This document shows, in pieces, positions 28,839 through 60,260 of a stretch of 64,000 nt of DNA. The DNA comes from Toxorhynchites rutilus septentrionalis (lineage: Eukaryota; Arthropoda; Insecta; Diptera; Culicidae): contig NC_073746.1 in NCBI RefSeq assembly GCF_029784135.1, positions 293,842,089 to 293,906,088 on the forward strand, written 5' to 3'. The position numbers and the translations under genes are program-made. Numbering within the stretch: position 1 is the stretch's first letter; each line of letters starts with the position of its first letter. The notes under the pieces were generated by a model. The model was not told the origin of the DNA. It did no database searches and saw only the letters and a program-made list of their open reading frames with translations.

Positions 28839-30123
28839 AAAGGTGTGTCACATCAAATTGCATCACGGAAAAAACGCTGTAGAAATTCGCCCAGTAGACC
28901 GATCCTTTTGAAAATTTTAGACAGTAAAATAAAAACTATTAAACAACTTTTGACATTTTCTTTTTATTCATACTTCGAGCCCAAGCCCGTATGCTCGCAC
29001 CTTCCTCTTTACCCCGTCCATAAGGTTCTGTACAACGTCAGGTTGTAGTTTTTTTTGAACAGAAATCCATTTTCTCTTGAAGTCCGTCTTGGATTTGACA
29101 ACTTTTGGGTTCTTCCGGAGGGCCTGCTTCATAATCGCCCAATATTTCTCTATTGGGCGAAGCTCCGGCGCGTTGGGCGGGTTCATTTCCTTTGGCACGA
29201 AGGTGACCCCGTTGGCTTCGTACCACTCCAACACGTCCTTTGAATAGTGGCACGAAGCGAGATCCGGCCAGAAGATGGTCGGGCCCTCGTGCTGCTTCAA
29301 TAGTGGTAGTAAGCGCTTCTGTAGGCACTCCTTAAGGTAAACCTGCCCGTTTACCGTGCCGGTCATCATGAAGGGGGCGCTCCGCTTTCCGCAAGAGCAG
29401 ATCGCTTGCCACACCATGTACTTTTTGGCAAACTTGGATAGTTTCTGCTTGCGAATCTCCTCCGGAACGCTGAATTTGTCCTCTGCGTAGAAGAACAACA
29501 GGCCCGGCAGCTGACGAAAGTCCGCTTTGACGTAGGTTTCGTCGTCCATTACCAGGCAATGCGGCTTCGTCAGCACTTCGGTGTACAGCTTCCGGGCTCG
29601 TGTCTTCCCCACCATGTTTTGCCTTTCGTCGCGGTTAGGAGCCTTCTGAACCTTGTATGTACGCAGGTCCTCCCGCTGCTTGGTCCGCTGGACGAATGAA
29701 CTTGACAAATTCAGCTTATTGGCGACATCCCGGACCGAACTTCTCGGATCACGTCTAAACTGCTTAACTACGCGCTTGTGATCTTTTTCACTGACGGAGT
29801 ATCCATTTTTGCCGTTCTTCACCTTCCGATCGATGGTTAGGTTCTCGAAGTATCTCTGCTGACCGTGGATTGGACGATTCCCATCTTACCGATGTCCCGA
29901 TGTGACAACTCCGGATTCTAGAAATGAGTGCGCAGGATTAATTCACGACGCTCTTTTTCGTTCGACGACATTTTTCCAAATTTACGAAAAATTGACAGTG
30001 AAGCATGGCCAACGTGATCTATACACTCTTATCTGATTACAAGCGAAAGCTGAAGATATAATTCCTAAAAATTAAATTTCTACAGCGTTTTTTCCGTGAT
30101 GCAATTTGATGTGACACACCCTT
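28839..30123 (-). mobile_element. ITmD37E-type DNA transposon, full length
   Basis: The ends are inverted repeats of about 49 bp, differing at one internal position: GGTGTGTCACATCAAATTGC inward from both sides, continuing through CATCACGGAAAAAACGCTG. TA dinucleotides flank it at 28837-28838 and 30124-30125, the expected target duplication. Length 1285 bp fits the Tc1/mariner-related DD37E group described from mosquitoes (ITmD37E). The near-identity of the ends suggests fairly recent insertion, though the transposase is broken. Confidence 0.9.
28968..29971 (-). pseudogene. DD37E transposase with N-terminal stop and frameshift
   Basis: The main frame covers 284 codons to the TGA at 28968-28970. 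It has a paired helix-turn-helix part (RDVANKLNLSSSFVQR), a VMDDETYVKAD block (first Asp), FWPDLASCHYSKDVLEW (second Asp) and LRPIEKYWA (Glu); exactly 37 residues lie between the second Asp and the Glu. The true start is probably at 29971, where ATG opens SSNEKERRELILRTHF, but an in-frame TAG follows that peptide. Then NPELSHRDIGKMGIVQSTVS reads on in the same frame before a frameshift near 29850, after which QRYFENLTIDRKV leads into the long frame. The product cannot be made in one piece. The catalytic triad itself is intact. Confidence 0.9.
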
Positions 30124-35238: not shown

Positions 35239-35686
35239 CGCGGAATTCTTTCCGTTTGGATGCCATTCAGCATCGAGAAAGATCCGGAAAATAATCTGCC
35301 AGTTTCTCTGGGAATTTAAAAATACATTCATGTGAAAGAGTTTATTTTAATGTTTTCTATCCATGTAACACTGTGACCAAATACATTTGGTTTTGTGATT
35401 TTTCAATCAATCGCAATTAACAGGATAGCTTCTGAAGATTATTCTTCCCCATCAGTAGGATATTTCCGTATCCAATATTGGATGCATGGTTTTATGCATC
35501 CATGTTTATGCATGTTGTACCTCCAACGTAACGCTCTCATTTTCGAAGTCCCCCAAATATTCATTTATTCATTCATTCAGAATGGATTCAACAACAGATC
35601 AACAGATTCAACTTCAAACAAAGGATCACTGAATCAACGATAGTCCTACGTCACCATTGTGGTTATACCATAGATATAACCCACTT

Positions 35687-37341
35687 TCTGTGTTTTGAAT
35701 CGATTCATTGTACCCGAGAAAATCGTGAAGATCGATCTTTTTCCTTCGATTTTATCGATCGTAATGTTTTTTTTAGTGTACGTTACATAGATTTAAATCT
35801 CACCACCTGGCAAATTTTATAAACATAATGTCAACATTTGGATAGTTTTCGAGGATGTCAAATTAGTGTTAGTGAAAAGGATTGAGCGATATTTCGAGGT
35901 TGTCAAATTAGTGATCGTGAACATAGGTGAGGCAGTTTTGTAAGTTTGGTCATTACAAAACAAGTGGTCACAAGTTATATTTACCATCACATTTGTTAGG
36001 CTGACAATGAAAATTGTGACGAGAAGGATGGTGACATCAGGTCCAGCTAAAGCGTCCTTTTCTAGAACTGGGCCTGGAACTGGATTTCGACTGAATTCCA
36101 GACTATGACACGGTTGGATTCAACGTGATTACTGTCAGCGTAGCTCTGGATGAAAATCAGTTGTTGAATTTCTAATCATTTTCAATTAATGTATGTTGTT
36201 AAATAATTCCATGACGGCTCAAGATGAATGTCCTAGAAACTAAATTTTTTCTGGGCTTTCAATTTTTTTTGGGAAAATCCTAAGAATCAATATGATATGC
36301 CTTTGACGTTTGAATAGAAATGTGTAATGTATAGACCATGTTTAAAGTAAAGACAACACTTATATAGAACAAATAAATAAATTGGAAAAAAGTCATTCGA
36401 ATTTCCACAGATCGATTCTTTGGTACCGATTAAATCAGTGAATCGATCCCTACGCCGTTTAGAAAATAAATCCATCAAGATCGATCTTTTTCTTAAGATC
36501 GCCCACTCCTAATACCGAGTCAACACTATTTGAGAAACAGTGGATCGGAATATTTGCCTCTCTTAATAGGTTTGATTGATTCTCGCAGGATATCCATAAA
36601 TTATCTGAAAATCGAGAGAAAACAGTGTTTTTCCAATGATTTTCCTTTAAGAAACATTGACTTCCACTCGAAAGACCAGCGTGTTTTTGGGAAATCAATA
36701 TTTTTACAAAACAAAACTTCACTTTTTTGTTCTAATTTTATTTCCTTAAAATGTAGGCGTTAACTTACATTCATTTAAGTTATTGAAGTGCATCAAAATT
36801 AAAATGCATCATTTATCCTCTTATTTTTACAAATATCTGATCAATCGGGAAGTAAAAATGTTAGAACATATCGAATTCACAGGGTTCTGGAAGATACATC
36901 AGACTGATAAAATATCTGAACATTTCTAAATGAAAACGACAAACGATAAAACAATAGTATTTTTAATTCGATTGAAAGATTGTATTCCGTTTGGGTTGGA
37001 GAAAATATGAGTTTTCCACGTCAATTGGGAATCTTTTGACTCAAGTGTGACTTTTGAAAAAGGCGTATCGATTTTAGTAAGAGAAATCTTTTAAAATTTA
37101 ATTCTCAAAAACTATGAGTCGTACCGAAATAGTGTCTTAGAAAGAGTTATAGAGTATTGATGTATCAAATTTTTATGAATTTTTGAAACTTCGAACTTCT
37201 GTATGTTAAGCCATTTTTTTCATTTTTAGCCACAAATTATGAATCCTGATGTGATTTAAAACAAAAAAGTTAATTATTAATCTCCATTTAAATGCAGCCG
37301 TTTTCGAGATATTAAAAAAAAAATTCTAATTCATTGTATTT
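35687..37341. other. Unassigned AT-rich sequence
   Basis: No coding frame or element ends were recognised. Two GATCGATCTTTTTC-like motifs occur near 35730 and 36480. Confidence 0.4.
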
Positions 37342-38467: not shown

Positions 38468-38540
38468 ATACGCATCACCCTACGACTGTTTACCAAACTT
38501 CTGTCATCATCACTCGGTAAACACTGGTGGAGTGAACAAA
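38468..38540. repeat. 73 bp direct repeat, left copy
   Basis: Nearly identical to 42231-42303 (3 differences by eye), starting ATACGCATCACCCTACGACT and ending GTGGAGTGAACAAA. The two copies immediately flank the H2A-bearing element. Too long for a normal target duplication. Confidence 0.8.
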
Positions 38541-38719
38541 AAGACGGGTGGGTAATGTCGGGGACATAACCGGAGTGACGTAGGACTATACAAAGGGGAC
38601 AGCTTTTGTTAAATATATATTTTAAATATATTGTTTTATTTTCTTCTCCTACGTGAATACCTACCTATCTACCTGAAAAATGGATTAGTTTACTGTTTAC
38701 TCTTTATGAATATGTTGTT

Positions 38720-38735
38720 GGTTCTAAAAAGAACC
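38720..38735 (-). terminator. Histone-type 3' stem-loop, copy 1
   Basis: GGTTCTTTTTAGAACC on the minus strand: six-pair stem with TTTT loop, one base from the histone consensus loop TTTC. An AAAGAG purine motif follows within 20 bases, like a histone downstream element. Confidence 0.65.
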
Positions 38736-39177
38736 TTTGGTGTTGTGTTTTTGTTATCACTCGATATTCCCACCTTGTTCGGTTAAACCTTCCTGTTTAG
38801 CTATTGCGTTTGCCACTCGCCACAGCTTTCACAGTTGGAAAATTTCTTCCCATCCAGCTTGTGACATGTTGTTCAGTGAATTACATTTAATGCGACGTGC
38901 CGGAGAAACACTTTGCCACTCACTGAAACTAAGCTGCTCTGTTCTTGATGCGGGTTTTCTGATTGTCGTGAGCAGCTATGTAAGTCAACTCAAGCACTCC
39001 GACGGCCGAAACTCTATAATCGCTGTTAGGTATACTAGTGCTCCGGCACCAATCCGTTCGGCCTAGTTACCCTTGCGGTGCAATCAGTGAATGCGACCAA
39101 CAGGGAACTGGAGACCTGCACGGTTCGAGTGAGACTTTGCCTTTCCCTTAACTTGTCCTCCTTTGTTACGTCCACGA
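38736..39177 (-). pseudogene. Histone H2A pseudogene, copy 1
   Basis: Minus-strand translation from 39177 gives [20 protein letters not shown] then [10 protein letters not shown], a stop, LHRKGN, a stop, and AERIGAGALVYLTAIIEF, which follows canonical H2A from residue 2 to about 58 with few changes. After a frameshift VLELTYIAAHDNQKTRI matches the H2A alpha-3 region. Beyond this the C-terminal part is scrambled by an inserted ~150 bp, and a TEQGG relic of the IAQGG tail precedes a stem-loop at 38720-38735. The start codon is lost: the expected ATG lies within CATCG near 39177. H2A packages DNA as part of the nucleosome core; this copy cannot encode it. A TATA box stands about 70 bp upstream. 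Confidence 0.85.
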
Positions 39178-39246
39178 TGCCGATGACGTACAACCACACG
39201 GGTATACGGTTTGAAAGAAAATAAGATATTTTTTTGGGGTCCGCGT

Positions 39247-39256
39247 GTTTTATACT
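39247..39256 (-). promoter_or_regulatory. TATA box of H2A pseudogene copy 1
   Basis: AGTATAAAAC on the minus strand, about 70 bp upstream of the H2A-like coding start. The same box with identical neighbours (CCGCTAGAGTATAAAACACG) stands before copies 2 and 4, so it was copied with them. Confidence 0.6.
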
Positions 39257-39418
39257 CTAGCGGTACACATTCACAGGATAGAGACAGACAAATCGGCAGA
39301 CTCAGCCAGAGGGGCGAGTCCAACGAGACGAACGAATGAGCGTTAAAAGGGAGCGATGGCAAAAAAATACATTCATTACGATTTGTTCGCTCGTTGGATT
39401 CACATGCAGGCTAAAAAG

Positions 39419-39434
39419 GGTCCTTTTCAGGATC
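39419..39434 (+). terminator. Histone-type 3' stem-loop on the plus strand
   Basis: GGTCCTTTTCAGGATC, followed by ACAAAATT and CTAAAGAG. It matches the GGYYCTTTTCAGRRCC consensus with one G.T pair. No histone coding sequence reads into it from the left; only the H2A promoter of copy 1 lies there, suggesting that a divergent partner gene was deleted. Confidence 0.65.
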
Positions 39435-40008
39435 ACAAAATTATCTTCAATCTAAAGAGTTTATTGTTTTGTTATCACTCGATATCCCAATCTTGTTCGG
39501 CTAAACCTTTCTGTTTAGCGATTGCGTTTGCCACTCGCCACAGATTTCACAGTTGGGAAATTTCTTCCTATCCAGCTTGTGACATATTGTACAGTAAATT
39601 ACATTCAATGGCACGTCGCATTACCACCACTCAGTGTCGGATTGGAGGTAATTTTAACCTGTAATTGAACATTTGCGATGACAGTGATACAGTGTCAACT
39701 TTCAATGTGGGGTCATAATTTGGACCCCGAACTCTATGTTTACAAAAATTTCCAACTAAATATGTCGCATTACAGGTCCGTCCAATTAGCTAAATGTCGA
39801 GATAAGTGTAAATTACTGTACTTTCAATCTAGAAGCAATTTAAGAATTGGTGAAAATCAATAAGCTCAGAACAACTGCCAAATTCACATATTCATCATAT
39901 CCTGGCAAACAAATTATGAAAAAATCAATTTGTGTTTTATTATTATTTTGGATATGTTTTAGAAAGCATTGAACTGCATTTCCTAAACTCTTTTTTGGAA
40001 GGTTTATT

Positions 40009-40024
40009 GGCCCTGAAAAGCGCC
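40009..40024 (-). terminator. Histone-type 3' stem-loop, copy 2
   Basis: GGCGCTTTTCAGGGCC on the minus strand; the loop TTTC is exact and the stem has one mismatch. Followed by CAATAAACC and a purine-rich AAAAAAGAG. Confidence 0.7.
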
Positions 40025-40400
40025 TTGTTTTATGGAATGGTTCCAATTTAGAAAACTTAGTACTCGTGGTTTTGAAAAAAACCATTTCGAACGCCCTCGA
40101 TGCCGCAGAACAAGGCGGCATCGAGGGCGTTCGAAATGGCCACTCGCCACTCGCTGCAACTGCCTGTTGTCTTGATGTCCACCAAACCGAATGTGTTCTG
40201 TTCCGAATGCGGGTTTTCTTATCGTCGCGAGCAGCTTTACCAGCCAACTCGATCACTTCGGCGGCCGAAACTATATAACGCCGGCTAGGTGGACTGGTGC
40301 ACTGGTACTAACGCGCTCGGCCTATCTACCCTTGCTGAGCAATTGGCGGATACACCTACGGAACCTTTCCCTTAACTTGTCCTCCTTTGTTACGTCCACG
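40025..40400 (-). pseudogene. Histone H2A pseudogene, copy 2
   Basis: From 40400 the minus strand reads [12 protein letters not shown], then an internal deletion, then ARTSAPVHLAGVI and IELAGKAARDDKKTRI, matching the H2A region AERVGAGAPVYLAAV...ELAGNAARDNKKTRI. The C-terminal half is replaced by unrelated sequence and by a perfect palindrome at 40082-40139. A TATA box lies at 40471-40480 and a stem-loop at 40009-40024. Closest to copies 3 and 5 in its core and to copy 1 in its promoter, so it may be a recombinant between the two types. Confidence 0.8.
40082..40139. repeat. Perfect 25 bp inverted repeat, 8 nt loop
   Basis: Arms 40082-40106 and 40115-40139 are exact reverse complements (left arm starts CCATTTCGAACGCCCTCGAT), with the loop AGAACAAG. 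Sister copies at 41321 and 57541 have only the left arm, running on into CTTGTTCTGGATTTGCC. The right arm and loop are therefore a local fold-back copy that replaced about 80 bp. Confidence 0.9.
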
Positions 40401-40470
40401 ATGCCGATGCCGTACAACCACACGGGTTTACGGTTTGAAAGAAAATAAGATATTTTTTTAGGGTCCGCGT

Positions 40471-40480
40471 GTTTTATACT
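40471..40480 (-). promoter_or_regulatory. TATA box of H2A pseudogene copy 2
   Basis: AGTATAAAAC on the minus strand, same spacing and neighbours as in copy 1. Confidence 0.6.
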
Positions 40481-40638
40481 CTAGCGGTACACACTCACAG
40501 GATAGAGACAAATCGGCAGACTCAGCCAGAGGGGCGAGTCCAACGAGACGAACGAATGAGCGTTAAAAGGGAGCGATGGCAAAAAAATACATTCATTACG
40601 ATTTGTTCGCTCGTTGCATTCACATGCAGGCTAAAAAG

Positions 40639-40654
40639 GGTCCTTTTCAGGATC
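40639..40654 (+). terminator. Histone-type 3' stem-loop on the plus strand
   Basis: GGTCCTTTTCAGGATC followed by ACAAAATT, identical to 39419-39434 in its sequence and setting just upstream of an H2A promoter. Confidence 0.65.
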
Positions 40655-41248
40655 ACAAAATTATCTTCAATCTAAAGAGTTTATTGTTTTGTTGTCACTC
40701 GATATCCCCATCTTGTTCGGCTAAACCTTCCTGTTTAGCGATTTGTTGCCACTCGCCACAGCTTTCACAGTTGGAAAATTTCTTCCCATCCAGCTTTGTG
40801 ACATGTTGTACAGTAAATTACATTCAATGCGACGTGCCGAAGCGCCACTCAGTGTCGCATTGGAGGCGATTTTAACCTATAATTGAACATTTGCGATGAC
40901 AGTGGTACAGTGTCGACTTTCAATGTGGGGTCATAATTTGGATCTCTATGTTTACAAAAATATCCAACTAAATAAGTCGCATTACATGCCCGTCCAATTA
41001 GCTAAATGTCGAACTAATTGTAAATTACTGTACTTTCAATCTGGAAACAATTTAAGAATTGGTGAAAATTGAATAATCAGGAAAGTCCCCAACTATCAAT
41101 AAGCTCAGAACAACTGCCAAATTCACATACTCATCAGATCCTGGCAAACAAATTATGAAAAAATCAATTTGTGTTTTATTATTATTTTGGATAATGTTTT
41201 AGAAAGCATTGAACTGTATTTCCTAAACTCTTTTTTGGAAGGTTTAAT

Positions 41249-41264
41249 GGCCCTGAAAAGCGCC
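41249..41264 (-). terminator. Histone-type 3' stem-loop, copy 3
   Basis: GGCGCTTTTCAGGGCC on the minus strand, identical to the loop of copy 2. Confidence 0.7.
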
Positions 41265-41707
41265 TTGTTTTATGGAATGGTTCCAATTTAGAAAACTTAG
41301 TACTCGTGGTTTTGAAAAAAACCATTTCGAACGCCCTCGATCCCGCCTTGTTCTGGATTTGCCACCAATAGAGTTTGTATAAAGAACAAACTTTTTTCTT
41401 CTGCTACCTGATGCCATTTTGCGATTGCGTTTGCCACTCGCCACTCGCTGCAACTGCCTGTTGTCTTGATGTCCACCGAACCGAATGTGTTCGGTTCCGA
41501 ATGCGGGTTTTCTTATCGTCGCGAGCAGCTTTGCCAGCTAACTCGATCACTTCGGCGGCCGAAACTATATAACGCCGGCTAGGTGGACTGGTGCACTGGT
41601 ACTAACGCGCTCGGCCTAGCTACCCTTGCGGGGAACTCCAGATCAACACGGTTCGAGCGGGATTTTGCCTTTCCCTCCACTTTTCCTCCTTTACCATGTC
41701 CAGACAT
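41265..41707 (-). pseudogene. Histone H2A pseudogene, copy 3, start codon kept
   Basis: ATG at 41707-41705 opens MSGHGKGGKVEGKAKSRSNR, an almost exact H2A N-terminus with Arg4 replaced by His. About 30 bp encoding VGRIHRLL are then deleted and the frame shifts; RKG, AERVSTSAPVHLAGVI and IELAGKAARDDKKTRI follow in other frames with stops. A degenerate EQGG tail relic lies just upstream of the stem-loop at 41249-41264. The 5' flank (AACCAACCCAAACAGCT before the ATG) differs from copies 1, 2 and 4 and is shared with copy 5, so two H2A promoter types are present. Confidence 0.85.
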
Positions 41708-42230
41708 AGCTGTTTGGGTTGGTTTGTTGATGTGTTGTGATGCGAACCGATGTGGTGTATGGTTTGAATGAGAATGATCGTAACGGCAGCGGAGCGGGGA
41801 TTTTTAAGCTGACTGGCTGGCTCGAGAATTACGCATGTGTGAGACTGCGACCAATGTTTCGTTCATTTTTTTTCTTTTTCCTTTCCAATCGTGCATCATT
41901 CTATTTCGCTGCTGCTCTGGTTGCCCGTTTTGGTCGGTACGATTTGAGGAGCACATAATGGACCAATTAAAAATGGGCACATAGTGCATTTTGACAATGC
42001 TTGATATTTCACAATTATTCAATTATTTATCTCAAGAAAAATTAAATGTTATTCGTTATGATAGATGCGTAGATATATTTCCTATCAATTGATGCAAAAA
42101 CCTTTACGATCTATTGAGAAATGCTCGAGTTATAAGCGTTCCAAATCTTGCATTTTTTCCTACTTGTTCAGTGCCTAGATTTCCATTTCATCCCCTATAT
42201 CTTCCGGTTAGACGTAGTCCTACGTCAATA

Positions 42231-42303
42231 ATACGCATCACCCTACGACTGTTTACCATACTTCTGTCATCATCACTCGGTAAATACTGGTGGAGTGAAC
42301 AAA
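42231..42303. repeat. 73 bp direct repeat, right copy
   Basis: Partner of 38468-38540. It is followed within 25 bases by a histone-type stem-loop on the plus strand (42328-42343), so it may be the degenerate 3' end of a histone gene; its GGTAAATACTGG stretch is at most weakly like the end of H2B. Confidence 0.75.
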
Positions 42304-42327
42304 CAATACCCTACAACCAAACAAAAC

Positions 42328-42343
42328 GTTCCTTTTCAGGGCC
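42328..42343 (+). terminator. Histone-type 3' stem-loop on the plus strand, outside block I
   Basis: GTTCCTTTTCAGGGCC, with exact TTTC loop and one mismatch plus one G.T pair in the stem, followed by ATCAAAG. It belongs to the 4.37 kb outer transposon and not the inner H2A element, implying that the outer element also held histone sequence. Confidence 0.5.
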
Positions 42344-42811
42344 ATCAAAGCGTTATCATAGAGTTTCACGAATTTTTCAAACATATCCAAAATCAACAGA
42401 TAGCCTAACAGAATCCTGCGTCAACTATGCAGTCGTGTCTCGGACACAACTCTCCTGTGCCTTTTTTTACAATTATCATACGTCAAAGTTTGCCAGAGAG
42501 TAGTTAACGTTTCTGAGAACAATATTGAACGAAAAAATTAAATGCTTTGTAAATTGCAGAGCACTGAACTTCATGTTCGTTTTTCTCAAAATCATAAAAA
42601 TGTCACATAGTCCGGTCTGACTTAACACCGACCAAATTTACATGTAACAAAGAATATGTTAATTTTCAAAAAATTCGATGCTTTCTAAAATAATATTCGA
42701 AGTGGCAAACAAGTGGATTGCATAATATAATTGCGTAGTTCTACGTTGAAAATATGCGATCGTGTCCACGATTGTGTCCAGATACCACCCCTTACAATTT
42801 TTGTAGAAAAC

Positions 42812-43011
42812 TAACTGACCCTACAATCTTCGTCTCGCCCAAAATGATTCATTGTTATAAATACTTTCAAACATTCACGTTTTCTTACTAAGCGAACGTC
42901 CATGGGTTCAATCGCAGAACTGTTCATTGATTAATGTTGACCCTTTACAAATTCCTTTTACCATAAATTCCCTAGTACTTCTACCAAAACTCGTCATTAT
43001 AATATCAAATC
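42812..43011 (-). mobile_element. Helitron-like repeat, left piece
   Basis: Matches 63745-63957: AACTGACCCTACAATCTTCG (CTGACCCGGCAAACTTCG in other copies), ATAAATACTTTC, CCATGGGTTCAATCG and AAAACTCGTCATTATAATAT. Interrupted at 43011 by the element 43016-44217; the continuation is at 44222. Confidence 0.6.
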
Positions 43012-43015
43012 TTTT

Positions 43016-44217
43016 TGACGTGGGGCTACGTCAACCGGAGTATATGGGGGGTAAAATGGAAACCTAAACACAGAACATGCAGGAAAAAATGAAAGATTCC
43101 AAATGCTTATAACTCGAACATTTCTTACTGGATCGGAAAGATGTTTGCATCAATTGATACGGAATATTTCTACGCTTCTATCGCAATCAATAAAATGTTA
43201 TTTTTCATTAGATAAACAATTAAATAACTGTGAAATGTCAACCGTCAACCAATCTAAACGCCCTAACTGCCTCGTTTTGATTGGCACGATTTAGGGTTTC
43301 CCAAACACAGACTTCAAAATCAATGTACATGTGGGAATCCGCTTAGCAAATATACATGCAAGTAGGGGTATTTTTGTTCCAACGGAACTTTCCCTAACAC
43401 GGACTTCAAAATCAATGTGCCTGGGGGAATCCACTTTGCAAATAAATGAAAGTCGGGAGTATTTTTGTTCCGACTGAAATTTGTTTCCCTAACACAGACT
43501 TCAAATCCATGGAGCGTGCGGAAATTGGCATTGCAAATACATGCAAGCCGGGTGCATTTTTATTCCGATAAAAATGTGTTTCCCTAACACAGACTTCGAA
43601 TCCATGAGGCGTGGGGAAATTGGTATTGCAAATACATGCAAGTCGGCAGCATTTTTGTTCCGACTGAAATGTGTTTCCCCAACACAAACTTCAGAACCAA
43701 GGTGTCTGGGAAAATTGGCATTGCAAATTCATTGCGACTGAAATGTGTTTCTCTAACACAGACTCCAAATCCAAGGAGCGTGGGGAAATTGACATTGCAA
43801 ATACATGCAATTTGATGGCATTTTTATTCCGGTTGAAATGTGTTTACCTATTACAGACTTCTAAACGAAGGTGTCTGGGGAACTCGGAATTGCAAATACA
43901 TGCAAATCGGAGGCATTTTTGTTCCGACTGAAATGTGTTCGTCTAACAAAGACTTCAAAACAAAGATGTCATCATACCAAAAGTAAATGGACTGTCAATC
44001 AATTTACTTGTAACGAAGAACATAATCTATCCAAATGCATGAATTGACCTCACATGGCATTATACAACTTTTTACTCACAAAGCAAATATATTGAATTCA
44101 ATTGAATTCGGAAATTGTTTCATTCAATCAAAAATTAAATCAATACAAACAAATGATTGCTAAGCTAAGTTAGTCCCACGTCAACCTTGCGGTTATATCA
44201 TAGATATAACCCACCCA
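43016..44217 (+). mobile_element. TGACGTAG-family member with both ends and TTTT duplication
   Basis: Begins TGACGTGGGGCTACGTC and ends with GTCCCACGTCAACC, the hairpin GGTTATATC-ATA-GATATAACC and CACCCA. TTTT flanks both sides (43012-43015 and 44218-44221). Removing it makes 42812-43011 and 44222 onward collinear with the uninterrupted Helitron-like repeat at 63745-64000. This defines the family's true boundaries: 1202 bp here. The middle is a ~94 bp tandem array. No open frame longer than about 90 codons. Confidence 0.75.
43288..43965 (+). repeat. Tandem array, ~94 bp period, eight units
   Basis: Units start with TTTCCCTAACACAGACTTC at about 43288, 43388, 43485, 43579, 43674, 43748, 43843 and 43940. 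Each continues with GGGGAAATTGGCATTGCAAA, TACATGCAAGTCGG and TTTTTGTTCCGACTGAAATG. One unit is short (74 bp). Two to three units occur in 37342, 49930 and 59309 members and in the flanks at 54820, 58495 and 61710, so the array expands within the family. Confidence 0.85.
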
Positions 44218-54717: not shown

Positions 54718-56242
54718 ATTTATCTATAAGAAAAATCGTTCAGCTCAAACCTTTGGCGGGGTATGAGATGGGGCATCATCAAAATCATCAATAACCAGGC
54801 CAAAATCTTGTGTTCATACCCGCTTTTGTAGTCCGTATTAGGAAAACATATTCCCGAGTGTAAAATGCTTGTGGGCAGGGTTGCCAATAATAATTTTCAA
54901 AAAACTGGAAGATCGCTATTTAGAAAACTGGAAGAAAACTGGATCCTGTAAAACCGTTTTATTTTAAAAAGATTGCATTTGCAACCCATTCCAAGGATTG
55001 AGAAATATCATCTTCTTTGAAGCTTCGTGTCGTATTCATATGCAGTTCATAAAACTACGAAATAAAAAATTAATTAATCATATAAGTCGAGGAGATCAAA
55101 ATGATGATAGGGACACGGAATTTAACACAAATCCTGTTCTTTTTCTGCACTAATGTATGCAGTGATCTATGTATAAAAATTCTAGAATATTTTTTCATTG
55201 GGTTTCATAATATTATTTCAATTCTAAAAAGAGCACATTCAATACCAAATTATTCTTTAATATTTTACCTTTATATCAGACTTGTCCAAACTAAATTTGG
55301 GTATCAAGATCAAAATGAGATATCCTTAAGTATTTCCTCCTGCTCGAGAATATACTTTTGGAAAAATATCCGTAGTATACATACTTGCTAAATAAACACT
55401 ATAGTGCTTATGTATTTTATGCAAAGCCTGCATTTTTTTTCGAAAAATACATCAAATCGGAGAGTTTAGATCATGCGTAATATTAATGCTATTTAGAATT
55501 AAAAATCCTTTGAGAGACCATTAAAAACTAATATCCCATTGATGTAAATGGGGACAAGATTACTTGGGTTTTATTTTCATATCAATCAAAGTCAATGGAA
55601 CTCATTGACACTAAGGTCTTCTGAAATTTAAAATGATTTGGAGGGCCTATAACATTTGATGATTATATAAACTCAAAGCCAGCATTGCACACGGGCTCTA
55701 TGGACCTATTTGGGTAAGACTATGAACATTGCTAGTTGAAATTGTAGTTCAATTAGTCTCAACTAGGAGGATCTAGAAATTCGGAAGTGTAAACAAGAAA
55801 ACAATAATACTGAGTTGAGTGTAAAATAAAAGAAAGATCAATCCAAGGTAAACGCAAATTGCATCGAACGAACGATAAATGTAAAAAAAAAACTAAGTTG
55901 GGTGAGTGGGTGAGTGAGCGATATTGTTTATACATTTTGAATTGATTTTACATAAAATGGGTAAGACTGAAGCACACCTATAAAAAACTGGATAAAACTG
56001 GATAATATTTGGAAAAAACTGGAAGATTTTAGGGTTTAACTGTTTGACTGGATCGAGTAAAAAAAGACGGGTGGGTAATGTCGGGGACATAACCGGAGTG
56101 ACGTAGGACTATGCAAAGGGGACAGCTTTTGTTAAATATATATTTTAAATAATTTGTTTTATTTTCTTCTCCTACGTGAATACCTACCTATCTACCTGAA
56201 AAATGGATTAGTTTACTGTTTACTCTTTATGAACATGTTGAT

Positions 56243-56258
56243 GGTTCTGAAAAGAACC
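56243..56258 (-). terminator. Histone-type 3' stem-loop, copy 4
   Basis: GGTTCTTTTCAGAACC on the minus strand: perfect six-pair stem, exact TTTC loop, fully within the GGYYCTTTTCAGRRCC consensus. AAAGAG follows about 17 bases later, like a histone downstream element. Confidence 0.75.
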
Positions 56259-56600
56259 TTTGGTGTTGTGTTTTTGTTATCACTCGATATTCCTATCTTG
56301 TTCGGTTAAACCTTCCTGTTTAGCTATTGCGTTTGCCACTCGCCACAGCTTTCACAGTTGGAAATTTTTTCCCATCCAGCTTGTGACATGTTGTTCAGTA
56401 AATTAAATTTAATGCGACGTGACGGAGAAACACTTTGCCACTTACTAAAAAGTTGCCTTGATGAGCGCCGAACCAAAGCTGCTCTGTTCTTGATGCAGGT
56501 TTTCTGATTGTCGTGAGCAGCTTTGCAAGCCAAATCGAGCACTCCGACGGCCGAAACTCTATAATCGCTGTTAGGTATACTGGTGCTCCGGCACGGCACC
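56259..56600 (-). pseudogene. Histone H2A pseudogene, copy 4, N-terminus deleted
   Basis: The promoter side (TATA at 56652-56661) is joined directly to the middle of H2A: GAPVYLTAIIEF then, after a frameshift, VLDLACKAAHDNQKT, matching AGAPVYLAAVLEY...LELAGNAARDNKKT. The N-terminal 40 residues are missing. The C-terminal part resembles copy 1 with its inserted segment, and the stem-loop at 56243-56258 is the best preserved of all. Confidence 0.75.
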
Positions 56601-56651
56601 ACGCGGGTTTACGGTTTGAAAGAAAATAAGATATTTTTTTGGGGTCCGCGT

Positions 56652-56661
56652 GTTTTATACT
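56652..56661 (-). promoter_or_regulatory. TATA box of H2A pseudogene copy 4
   Basis: AGTATAAAAC on the minus strand in the same setting as copies 1 and 2. Confidence 0.55.
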
Positions 56662-56785
56662 CTAGCGGTACACACTCACAGGATGGAGACAAATCGGCAG
56701 ACTCAGCCAGAGGGGCGAGTCCAATGAGACGAACGAATGAGCGTTAAAAGGGAGCGATGGCAAAGTTTGAAGCCTTTTAAAAACA

Positions 56786-56804
56786 AAGAAAGAAAGAAAG
56801 AAAA
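56786..56804. repeat. GAAA microsatellite
   Basis: Four AAAG units inserted in the H2A upstream region next to TTTAAAAACAAAG, absent from block I. Confidence 0.85.
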
Positions 56805-56856
56805 ATACATTCATTACGATTTGTTCGCTCGTTGGATTCACATGCAGGCTAAAAAG

Positions 56857-56872
56857 GGTCCTTTTTAGGATC
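56857..56872 (+). terminator. Histone-type 3' stem-loop on the plus strand
   Basis: GGTCCTTTTTAGGATC followed by ACAAAATT; equivalent of 39419-39434 and 40639-40654 with one loop change. Confidence 0.6.
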
Positions 56873-57466
56873 ACAAAATTATCTTCAATCTAAAGAGTTT
56901 ATTGTTTTGTTATCACTCGATCTCCCCATCTTGTTCGGCTAAACCTTCCTGTTTAGCAATTTGTTGCCACTCGCCACAGCTTTCACAGTTGGAAAATTTC
57001 TTCCCATCCAGCTTTGTGACATGTTGTACAGTAAATTACATTCAATGCGACGTGCCGAAGCGCCACTCAGTGTCGCATTGGAAGCGATTTTAACCTGTAA
57101 TTGAACATTTGCGATGACAGTGGTACAGTGTCGACTTTCAATGTGGGGTCATAATTTGGATCTCTATGTTTACAAAAATGTCCAACTAAATATGTCGCGT
57201 TACATGTCCGTCCAATTAGCCAAATGTCGAACTAATAGTAAATTACTGTACTTTCAATCTGGAAACAATTTAATAATTCGTGAAAATGGAATAATCAGGA
57301 AAGTCCCCAACTATCAATAAGCTCAGAACAACTGCCAAATTCACATACTCATCAGATCCTGGCAAACAAATTATGAAAAAATCAATTTGTGTTTTATTAT
57401 TATTTTGGATATTATTTTAGAAAGCATTGAACTGTATTTCGTAAACTCTTTTTTGAAAGGTTTAAT

Positions 57467-57482
57467 GGCCCTGATAAGCGCC
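57467..57482 (-). terminator. Histone-type 3' stem-loop, copy 5 (worn)
   Basis: GGCGCTTATCAGGGCC on the minus strand: one loop base differs from copies 2 and 3. Confidence 0.55.
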
Positions 57483-57924
57483 GTGTTTTATGGAATGGTT
57501 CCAATTTAGAAAACTTAGTACTCGTGGTTTTGAAAAAAAACCATTTCGAACGCCCTCGATGCCGCCTTGTTCTGGATTTGCCACCAAAGCAGTTTGTATA
57601 AAGAACAAACTTTTTTCTTCTGCTACCTGATGCCGTTTTGCGATTGCGTTTGCCACTCGCCACTCGCTGCAACTGCCTGTTGTCTTGATGTCCACCGAAC
57701 CGAATGTGTTCTGTTCCGAATGCGGGTTTTTTTATCGTCGCGAGCAGCGAGCAGCTAACTCGATCACTTCGGCGGCCGAAACTATATAACGTCGGCTAGG
57801 TGGACTGGTGCACTGGTACTAACGCGCTTGGCCTAGCTACCCTTGCGGGGAACTTCAGATCAACACGGTTCGAGCGGGATTTTGTCTTTCCCTTCACTTT
57901 TCCTCCTTTACCATGTCCAGACAT
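57483..57924 (-). pseudogene. Histone H2A pseudogene, copy 5, start codon kept
   Basis: ATG at 57924-57922 opens MSGHGKGGKVKGKTKSRSNR. The following VDLKFPAR shows the same deletion as copy 3, so both descend from one already broken copy. AERVSTSAPVHLAGVI-like and KAARDDKKTRI relics follow out of frame. The EQGGIEGV tail relic lies near 57565 and the stem-loop at 57467-57482 (loop ATCA on the plus strand, one change). Not functional. Confidence 0.85.
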
Positions 57925-59204
57925 GGCTGCTTGGGTTGGTTTGTTGATGTGTTGTGATGCGAACCGATGTGGTGTACGGTTTGAATGAGAATGATCGTTA
58001 CAGCAGCGGAGCGGGGATTTTTAAGCTGACTGGCTGGCTCGAGAATTACGCATGTGTGAGACTGCGACCAATGTTTCGTTATTTTTTTTTCTTTTTCCTT
58101 TCCAATCGCGCTTCATTCTATTTCGCTGCTGCTCTGGTTGCCCGTTTTGGTCGGTACGATTTGAGGAGCACAAAATGGACCAATCAAAAATGGGCACATA
58201 GTGCATTTTGACAATGCTTGATATTTCACAATTATTCAATTATTTATCTCAAGAAAAACGAAATGTTATTTGTTATGATAGATGCGTAGATATATTTCCT
58301 ATCAATTGATGCAAAAACCTTTGCGATCTATTGAGAAATGCTCGAGTTATAAGCGTTCCAAATCTTGCATTTTTTCCTACTTGTTCAGTGCCTAGATTTG
58401 CATTTCACCCCCTATATCTTCCGGTTAGACGTAGTCCTACGTCAAAACTGGAAGAATCCAGTTTAAACTGGAACATTGGCAACGCTGCTTGTGGGTATAA
58501 AAGAATCACCGGTTGCATGTCTTGCAATGTCGATTTCCCAAGACTCTTTGGTTTAAAAGTCTGTGTTAGGGAAACACATTCCGATCTCCCCAAATGCACA
58601 CGAGTACAAAAGTATCCACATCTTTCGCGCGCAGCCTCCTTGGTTTTGAAGTCCGTGTTATGGAAACTTATTTCGGTCTGCATATAGAGTGATGCTTCTG
58701 AATCCAGACACTTTTTAATCCGGACACTTTTTCATTACATTCAAAACCATGTTATAGTTACTATTGTGTCAATTTAGTTTAGTGTCAAACATAGTACCTA
58801 TCTGTTAACAAAAAACATGTAAGAATTCAAAACTCAATGTGAATTTCACAAACCCATGTCCGGAATATAAAGCACATTCAGAAAATGATTTTAAATCCGG
58901 ACGGTCAAAAGTTGACGAATCAATTTCTCATTGAAGGAGTTGCATGAGGGTATGTTAGAAGCCTTAGTATGGAGTATGGAGTGTGGAGCAAAGATTTTCG
59001 ATACGGGAAACTGGAAAACTCTTCGATATACAGGACAGGGTCGATTATATGACCCGTTTGTATGTACGTGGGTAACTTTGTAACTTTGTCTGTAGCGCTG
59101 TCCCACATTAATAGAAATTTAACCTCCTTCGTGTTGACCGATTGATCTGAAATTTGCAACACACCTTTATCTCTGCAGTCATTATGAAACTGCCTATTTC
59201 ATGA

Positions 59205-59308: not shown

Positions 59309-59975
59309 TGGTTGGGTTATATCTATGATATAACCGCATGGTTGACGTGGAACTACCTTAGTTTAGCAATCATTTATTTGTATTGATTAAATTTTTGGTG
59401 GAATGAAACAATTTCCGAATTCAATTGAATTCAATATATTTGCTTTGTGAGTAACAAAAATGCCAATTTCCCCACGCTACATGGATTTGAAGTTTGTGTT
59501 AGGGAAACACATTTCAGTCTGAACAAAAATGCCCCCGACATACATGTATTTGGAATGCCAATTTCCCCACGCTCCTTGGATTTAAAATCTTCGTTAGGGA
59601 AACACATTTCAGTCGGAACAAAAATACCTCCGACATTCATGTATTTGCAATGCCGTTTTCCCGAAGGTTGCTTGGTTTTGATGGCTGTGTTGGGGAAACC
59701 GTAGATCAGACCAATCGAAATAAGTCAGTTATGGCGTTTAGATAACGCTTAACATATTACAGTTATTCAATTGTTTATCTAATGAAAAATAACATTTTAT
59801 TAATTGCGGTAGAAGCGTAGAAATATTCCCTATCTATTGATGCAAACATCTTTCCGATCCATTAAGAAATGTTCGATTTATAAGCATTCGGAATCTTTCA
59901 TTTTTTCCTGCATGTTCTGTGCTTAGGTTTTCATTTTACCCCCCATATACTCCGGTTAGACGTAGTCCCACGTCA
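59309..59975 (-). mobile_element. TGACGTAG-family member (M7), complete, AAAA duplication
   Basis: Left end TGGTTGGGTTATATC with the hairpin GGTTATATC-TAT-GATATAACC; right end GACGTAGTCCCACGTCA. AAAA on both sides (59305-59308 and 59976-59979). Removal restores the ~120 bp unit (TTGACTAGAA / CAGTTAATTATG as in intact units near 60095 and 60210). It holds about two and a half of the ~94 bp modules, length 667 bp. Confidence 0.75.
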
Positions 59976-60260
59976 AAAACAGTTAATTATGAAAAATTCA
60001 AATCCAAAATGACCGCCAGCACAAAATGGCGTCATATTTAATATATATTTTTTTCCAAACCTTATCAATATGTTTATCAGATGAAAGGGCTTGACTAGTA
60101 GAATACAATTATTGATGAAAAATGGGAATCCGAGATAACGGCCGCTACAAAATAGTGGAATACATATTTTCTCAGAACCCCATCAATATGGGTATCAAAT
60201 GAAAGGACTTGACTAGAAGAATACAGTTATTTATGAAAAATGCTAATCCAAAATGGGTCA
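59976..60260 (+). repeat. ~120 bp tandem array, forward
   Basis: Units at about 60000, 60122 and 60239, each with AATCCAAAATG(G/A)C, GCTACAAAATGG-like, TCAATATGGGTATCAAATGA and TTGACTAGAAGAATACAGTT. Confidence 0.75.

Follow-up and report, generated by a model that had tools for sequence, protein, structure and literature searches.

The window analysed here, a 64,000-nt stretch of Toxorhynchites rutilus septentrionalis DNA (NC_073746.1, positions 293,842,089 to 293,906,088; contig C3 of the 902 Mb source genome G000), harbours two members of a repeat family that carry degraded histone gene sequence. When read on the minus strand, the first of these is, by its sequence hallmarks, a non-autonomous Helentron (HINE), Helentrons being rolling-circle transposons alternatively named Helitron2. 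The two elements, and two relatives from the same window, are as follows.

38543..42227, minus strand: element 1, a HINE with three H2A units, delimited by its ends and flanks; the Helentron 5′ end lies at the right and the 3′ end at 38543, with a T-run at 38538-38542
56066..58444, minus strand: element 2, of the same family as element 1, with two units and different flanks
59313..59980, minus strand: related HINE with ~95-bp central tandem repeats, no histone cargo found
43011..44214, plus strand: related HINE with ~95-bp central tandem repeats, no histone cargo found

Elements 1 and 2 have common ends and are alike over most of their length, starting at the left with (A)nGACGGGTGGG and finishing at the right with GTAGTCCTACGTCAA, and their flanks differ. 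An earlier, sequence-only reading of this DNA had proposed element 2 as a second, two-unit copy with the same termini in different surroundings, and comparison of both ends and the flanks bears this out. It had also claimed that these termini recur in repeats free of histone sequence, which holds for the two relatives above, as they match the right-hand ~240 bp of the elements at about 80 % (59709-59975, plus strand; 43016-43284, minus strand).

Histone sequence was located by tblastn, using an H2A protein as query. On the minus strand of element 1, matches occur at 39173-38991 (74 % over 61 aa, E-value 8e-25), at 41707-41500 in three pieces (4e-16) and at 40397-40206 (3e-7); those of element 2, also on the minus strand, are at 57924-57719 (6e-12) and 56592-56492 (8e-4). 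These are degraded 5′ halves of H2A, three in element 1 and two in element 2, lying within codons 1-78 and interrupted by stops and a frameshift. When all six full-length frames of element 1 (stops as X) were scanned against Pfam, no histone domain was returned, and the histone evidence therefore stands at the tblastn and DNA level. The cargo, read as captured, comprises the following features.

38946..39179, minus strand: H2A unit C, codons 1-78, pseudogene
40207..40403, minus strand: H2A unit B, an apparent recombinant of C-like 5′ and A-like 3′ parts
41501..41707, minus strand: H2A unit A, within codons 1-78, with an internal deletion, pseudogene
57720..57924, minus strand: H2A unit A of element 2
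56491..56594, minus strand: H2A unit C remnant of element 2
39175..39404, no strand assigned: captured divergent H2A-H2B promoter, copy 1 (within positions 404-862 of element 1 against locus L041, 77 %; alignment with copy L008)
40399..40624, no strand assigned: captured divergent H2A-H2B promoter, copy 2 (within positions 1665-2082 of element 1 against L041, 72 %)
39414..39515, plus strand: captured H2B 3′ end, copy 1, with stem-loop and histone downstream element (HDE) at 19 nt spacing, as in the H2B gene of locus L042 (87 % over 102 bp to L042)
40634..40735, plus strand: captured H2B 3′ end, copy 2, also with a stem-loop (88 % to L042 over 102 bp)

Comparison of the cargo with five fetched histone-cluster stretches reveals how it is built. 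Positions 404-862 of element 1 match L041 (77 %) from H2A codon 78 back to the start, through the divergent promoter and up to just before the H2B start; the match then skips the H2B open reading frame (ORF) and resumes at the H2B 3′ end and its stem-loop (positions 872-973 of element 1 against L042, 87 %). The three H2A units first noticed in element 1 are upheld as tblastn matches, but the cargo is not H2A alone: it is an H2A-H2B pair from which the H2B ORF is missing. In copy L008, promoter bases are kept at 51/58 and 51/60 positions of two TATA-side blocks. A TATA-like CTATATAACG was rejected as a promoter, since it belongs to H2A coding sequence read in antisense. Across five copies, eleven H2A units display 81-85 % identity to the C3-type gene versus 71-74 % to the C2-type gene, with the nearest cargo match being the histone cluster at C3:233.5 Mb. 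A TAG at the gene's TAT codon and a one-base deletion are common to all 11 units, which points to one capture; a single capture, then internal duplication of the cargo, would be the simplest reading. Element or Helentron ends are also found within histone clusters (L031, L042 and units of C113/C375), so that an opportunity for capture existed, and the capture step itself may be supposed.

Three further peculiarities of the cargo and its relatives may be recorded. The C3-cluster unit in L042 contains ~6.5 kb of extra DNA between H2B and H2A (L042:1781-8286), and in element 2 the A-run of the captured promoter is interrupted at 56766-56800 by a ~34-bp insertion (GTTTGAAGCC...AAAGAAAG) that resembles one end of this L042 insert. 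Element 1 harbours a 58-bp inverted repeat (palindrome-like, 86 %) at a unit junction, 40082-40139.

The carrier itself displays the organization of a HINE, for which the relevant features of element 1 and its surroundings are these.

42211..42228, minus strand: 5′ palindromic subterminal inverted repeat (subTIR; TTGACGTAGGACTACGTC) of element 1, the subTIR being defined on copy L008
38539..38753, minus strand: Helentron 3′ end of element 1, with stem-loop, HDE, subTIR and 3′ palindrome (97.7 % over 215 bp to the Helentron locus L063)
42286..42466, plus strand: remnant of an L066-type Helentron 3′ untranslated region (UTR), beside which element 1 is inserted (81.8 % over 192 bp)

On the minus strand the element begins with the palindromic subTIR TTGACGTAGGACTACGTC, and near its 3′ end an inverted subTIR copy TAGTCCTACGTCA, a palindrome GTTATGTCCCCGACATTAC and a T-run follow in that order. 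Helentrons and HINEs are recognized by palindromic subTIRs of at least 11-15 bp, situated near the 5′ terminus and ~38-60 bp short of the 3′ end; copy L008 has them, as the 13-bp TGACGTAGGACTA at both ends, of which the 5′ example is palindromic and adjoins the terminal TT. They also possess a 3′ palindrome 8-35 bp from the 3′ terminus, and this corresponds to GTTATGTCCCCGACATTAC, which folds as a hairpin. Terminal T-runs vary across 22 copies, from 4 to 13 at the 3′ end and from 2 to 16 at the 5′ end. One copy, L044, is nested in an older copy of the same family, and the pre-insertion site is therefore readable: the uninterrupted sequence is CCAAAATAATAATAAAACAC, intact apart from a 0-2 bp ambiguity, which leaves room for a duplication of no more than 0-2 bp. 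A T-rich target without target-site duplication and with variable terminal Ts, as is characteristic of Helentrons and HINEs, is thus found here, as read at the one nested site of L044.

Across the genome, 24 places were examined: elements 1 and 2 of the window together with L002-L008 and L044-L058. In 22 of them, on C1, C2 and C3, which are three chromosome-size contigs, both ends were identified and the flanks are unrelated; the stretches examined for L002 and L052 did not show the left end. Pairwise differences amongst 20 aligned two-unit copies range from 0.0 % to 4.0 %, in a table that leaves aside the three-unit copies, element 1 and L003. L004, L005 and L006, at sites on C2, C2 and C3, respectively, differ by 0.0 % (rounded) over 2405 bp, and the same rounded figure separates L048 from L050, which occupy two sites on C3. 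As both sets of copies lie at separate sites, recent movement is indicated.

A search of the genome for the Helitron_like_N domain, in which the best 150 of 1313 candidates were scored and gave 132 matches, led to two loci with long ORFs, L062 and L063. The latter encodes a single 1674-aa frame with Rep, PIF1 helicase and endonuclease (Exo_endo_phos) domains and carries the Helentron-type motif EFQHRGSPHAH (RGSPH). Its last 211 bp match the histone-carrying copy L008 at 97.6 %, where an autonomous partner is expected to encode Rep, helicase and endonuclease and to show at least 80 % over the last 60 bp. On this sequence evidence, the proteins that mobilize the HINE probably come from L063. L062 (1564 aa) has 67 % protein identity to L063 and a distinct 3′ end (77.8 % over 45 bp), and the C-terminal 42 residues of a further locus, L066, show 68 % to L062 and 63 % to L063 over the aligned part. 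Thomas et al. 2014 (PMC4067079) assign elements to one family when at least 11 bp of the subTIR are identical, and to one subfamily at 80 % over the last 60 bp. By this rule L062 and L063 would be two subfamilies of one family and L066 another family; they are termed three lineages here, one comprising L062, L064 and L067, another L066 and L079, and the third L063. By the author's reading, the Helentron copies L064 and L066 each end within a histone-carrying HINE copy, at its T-runs, and Helentron lineages therefore nest in each other. Matches to the L062-type 3′ end also occur in the window, at 35558-35694, 44144-44214 and 59313-59382 (78-86 %).

The 3′ ends of these transposons contain a structure otherwise associated with histone messages. 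With the Rfam Histone3 model (RF00032), 10 matches at E-values up to 5 were obtained in 38300-58700, and 10 of 10 fall inside the two elements. Eight score below the gathering score of 34; the two that pass it lie close to the Helentron 3′ end, both on the minus strand.

38696..38740, minus strand: Helentron-type histone 3′ stem-loop with AAAGAG 14 nt downstream (Rfam RF00032, 37.4 bits)
56219..56263, minus strand: matching Helentron-type stem-loop in element 2 (Rfam RF00032, 38.7 bits)

Plus-strand stem-loops at 39414, 40634 and 56852 (16.9-18 bits) are H2B 3′ ends. Judged by its sequence, the strongest stem-loop in the element is part of the Helentron carrier, not of the histone cargo. The initial proposal that the H2A units bear a promoter and a 3′ stem-loop is consequently retained for the captured promoter and the H2B stem-loops, but the best two stem-loops belong to the Helentron 3′ end.

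The Helentrons of this genome were examined for the same structure. In L063, a stem-loop like that of the HINE (40.5 bits) lies between the ORF stop and the 3′ end; from base 1241 of this locus to the 3′ end there is no DNA match to histone loci L009-L043 at E-values up to 1e-3, nor do the four histone proteins match anywhere in the locus at E-values up to 0.1. Seven Helentron loci were checked at the expected 3′ region, and Rfam lists the stem-loop in five: L062 and L064 (both 22.9 bits), L063, and L066 and L079 (both 38.1 bits). That of L067 is unlisted by Rfam and visible with one broken pair. L065 has no Histone3 match, and no Helentron 3′ end is seen in its stretch, which by the author's reading holds part of another transposon; it was rejected as a Helentron 3′ end. 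The sequence AAAGAG lies exactly 14 nt past the stem in L062, L063, L064 and L066 and, by alignment, also in L067 and L079; of 16 stem-loops in the histone genes of this genome, 12 have such a pattern 14-19 nt downstream. In all three Helentron lineages the stem-loop and AAAGAG are placed after the ORF stop and before the 3′ end. When the 3′ UTRs of L062, L063 and L066 are compared with one another, just two blocks align (E-values up to 0.1), one with the stem-loop and HDE and one with the subTIR and palindrome; between L062 and L063 it is the second block alone. Dinucleotide shuffling, 20,000 times for each of L062, L063 and L066, never gave a perfect stem with AAAGAG in reach. The single control, L060/L080, is Helitron-like with RGMPH not RGSPH, and has no Histone3 match and an AATAAA in the ~460 nt after its stop, that stop being placed from frame length and the endonuclease region of the control lying outside what was covered.

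Genome-wide, the best 75 of 199,592 first-look candidates for RF00032 were scored, a sample rather than a census. Eleven lie in histone clusters (41.3 bits) and 64 outside, the latter including the 36 best (41.8-44.5 bits). Ten of these 64 were inspected, one from each of ten score classes and chosen before reading. By the author's reading, eight are 3′ ends of histone-carrying HINEs, L070 (44.3 bits) is a related Helentron 3′ end, and L072 (43.9 bits) has a like stem-loop context, with no 3′ end in the stretch.

The best explanation for these data, and one that can be held with high confidence, is a HINE lineage with a captured, internally duplicated H2A-H2B pair, which has spread with an L063-type Helentron as its likely mover and has inherited a histone-type 3′ end. 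At the outset, a Helentron or HINE in a histone cluster would have read through or switched template, thereby capturing H2A-H2B. The captured cargo (H2A codons 1-78, promoter and H2B 3′ end) was duplicated inside the element, and the element has been copied to many sites, with some copies still identical. The autonomous Helentron (L063) would supply the Rep/PIF1/endonuclease protein that moves the HINE. Its own 3′ end, comprising stem-loop and downstream element and inherited by the HINE, is observed in the sequence, and would putatively end the transposase message in the manner of a replication-dependent histone mRNA.

Other origins account less well for the copies. Were the elements products of segmental duplication of one degenerate histone cluster, the presence of element ends in the histone clusters L031 and L042 would be understandable; this is refuted by the independent sites of the 22 copies, which have sharp boundaries and unrelated flanks and are distributed over three contigs, and such an origin is exceedingly improbable. 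The sequence-only reading had named confinement to one such cluster as the outcome that would overturn capture by a mobile element followed by copying, and had suggested a genome search with the 3.7 kb block; that search, run on a sample, found independent insertion sites, and the 22 of 24 places on C1-C3 support capture and copying. An ordinary transposon with terminal inverted repeats (a miniature inverted-repeat transposable element) that had captured histone DNA would explain the 13-bp inverted repeat in the ends. These repeats are, however, subterminal and asymmetric, the single readable target duplication is 0-2 bp, the terminal T-runs vary, and a Rep/helicase partner has the common end, all of which renders this origin very unlikely. 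Several points do weigh against the HINE explanation preferred here. The genome search with element 1 scored the best 40 of 5673 first-look candidates and gives no total copy number, and the fetched stretches of L063 and its twin L068 did not reveal where the autonomous partner has its 5′ end. The target-site claim comes from one clean nested site, with a second nested copy, L054, having its exact join blurred by an A/T-run. Element 1 is moreover flanked by 73-bp direct repeats (97 %), at 38468-38540 and 42231-42305, and may, at this site alone, have a long target-site duplication. No abutting direct repeat of this kind is present in the other copies of the 22; L050 has a 52-bp, 86.5 % direct repeat ~130-150 bp out on each flank, and shorter ones occur in a few copies. 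The flanks of element 1 match the L066-type Helentron 3′ UTR, and on this similarity the flank repeat reads as a pre-existing duplication in an older Helentron remnant.

What the stem-loop does is a separate matter. Helentrons somewhat more probably than otherwise use the host stem-loop binding protein (SLBP) and U7 small nuclear ribonucleoprotein to form the 3′ end of the Rep/helicase/endonuclease message, as the stem-loop and downstream element in the three lineages would suggest. L004-L006 lack the stem-loop yet have spread; transposition therefore does not require it in cis, which is what a role in the message of the partner would predict. This also speaks against a cis signal for rolling-circle replication or termination, a role that the position of the stem-loop near the 3′ end, where rolling-circle elements terminate, might otherwise recommend: 3 of 22 copies (the identical L004-L006) transposed without it, the 3′ palindrome is a separate structure, and a termination hairpin leaves the fixed-distance HDE unexplained. 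Such a signal is improbable. A less remote alternative, though still an unlikely one, is that stem-loop and HDE are roleless leftovers of histone capture, common by descent from one carrier. Helentrons here and, according to PMC4067079, in Culex do pick up histone DNA, and the stem-loop regions of the L066 and L062 types resemble histone 3′ ends (84 % over 50 bp to an H3 gene and 74 % over 65 bp to an H4 gene, respectively). Double changes affect two of the six stem pairs, which is no more than in shuffles (246 of 500 reach it). Against descent as mere leftovers, protein identity between the L062 and L063 ORFs is no more than 67 %, alignment among the L062, L063 and L066 3′ UTRs is confined to the two blocks, and the 14 nt HDE spacing is found in all three lineages. 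Amongst 13 distinct stem-loops, pairing is kept in 98.7 % of cells and nine cells show double changes, neither of which is reached in any of 500 shuffles, in an alignment of 14 rows, 7 of which come from histone genes or from the elements of the window itself. Certain findings run counter to histone-type processing itself. By the author's reading, L062 appears to have introns, one of them in the 3′ UTR, and histone genes are without introns. L063 has an AATAAA ~110 nt upstream of the stem-loop and another downstream. The gathering score is exceeded in two of the three lineages, the L062 lineage falling below it, and the downstream element is altered to AAAGAA in L070, which fails the perfect stem plus AAAGAG pattern for this reason, and to GAAGAT in L072.

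Elsewhere in the window, a 305-aa frame at 28971-29885 (minus strand) contains a Tc1/mariner-type DDE_3 domain (E-value 6e-10), the sole above-cut-off Pfam match among the seven long window ORFs scanned.

With regard to known systems, the nearest precedent for the cargo is Helentron-Cq-32A of Culex quinquefasciatus, for which the main text of PMC4067079 reports H4 and linker-histone (H15) fragments and eight copies. As here, those fragments contain stops and frameshifts and occur in several copies, the Culex ones at 83-84 % to their parent genes; the difference is that H4/H15 were taken there, whereas here a non-autonomous element carries an H2A-H2B pair together with its promoter. Since histone capture by a Culex Helentron is thereby already published, the cargo alone is a modest addition. 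The carrier likewise resembles the HINE/DINE-1 elements described in that main text, with palindromic subTIRs, a 3′ palindrome, a T-rich target without duplication, variable terminal Ts and a Rep/helicase/endonuclease partner, and some HINEs there have central tandem repeats like those (~95 bp) of the cargo-free relatives in the window. It differs from them in its histone cargo and in the histone-type stem-loop near its 3′ end. The terms UTR, polyadenylation, S phase, cell cycle and mRNA are absent from the main text of PMC4067079, which speaks of a stem loop 10 times, always with reference to the terminal palindrome; no report of a histone 3′ end signal on Helitrons or other transposons was found in the open-access literature. 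The structure is similar to the 3′ end of replication-dependent histone mRNA (RF00032; PMC2781718, in the parts drawn upon here) in its six-pair stem, four-base loop, flanking A/C and purine-rich element at 14 nt, and differs in residing on the transposase gene of a transposon. These comparisons suggest that what is new is the histone-type 3′ end on Helentrons, with a putative function. Were that function real, transposase production would be tied to S phase and a rolling-circle transposon would be a non-histone user of the signal, with the histone-carrying HINE combining a histone promoter with a histone-type 3′ end. It would also offer a directly testable account of the means by which rolling-circle transposons might coordinate their activity with DNA replication, and dispersed Rfam Histone3 matches in such a genome would be explained as transposon ends. 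In those same parts, PMC2781718, on Drosophila SLBP, describes the stem-loop as unique to histone mRNAs and finds no evidence of SLBP binding non-histone RNAs; Helentron messages ending in this way would bear directly on the claim that the stem-loop belongs to histone messages alone.

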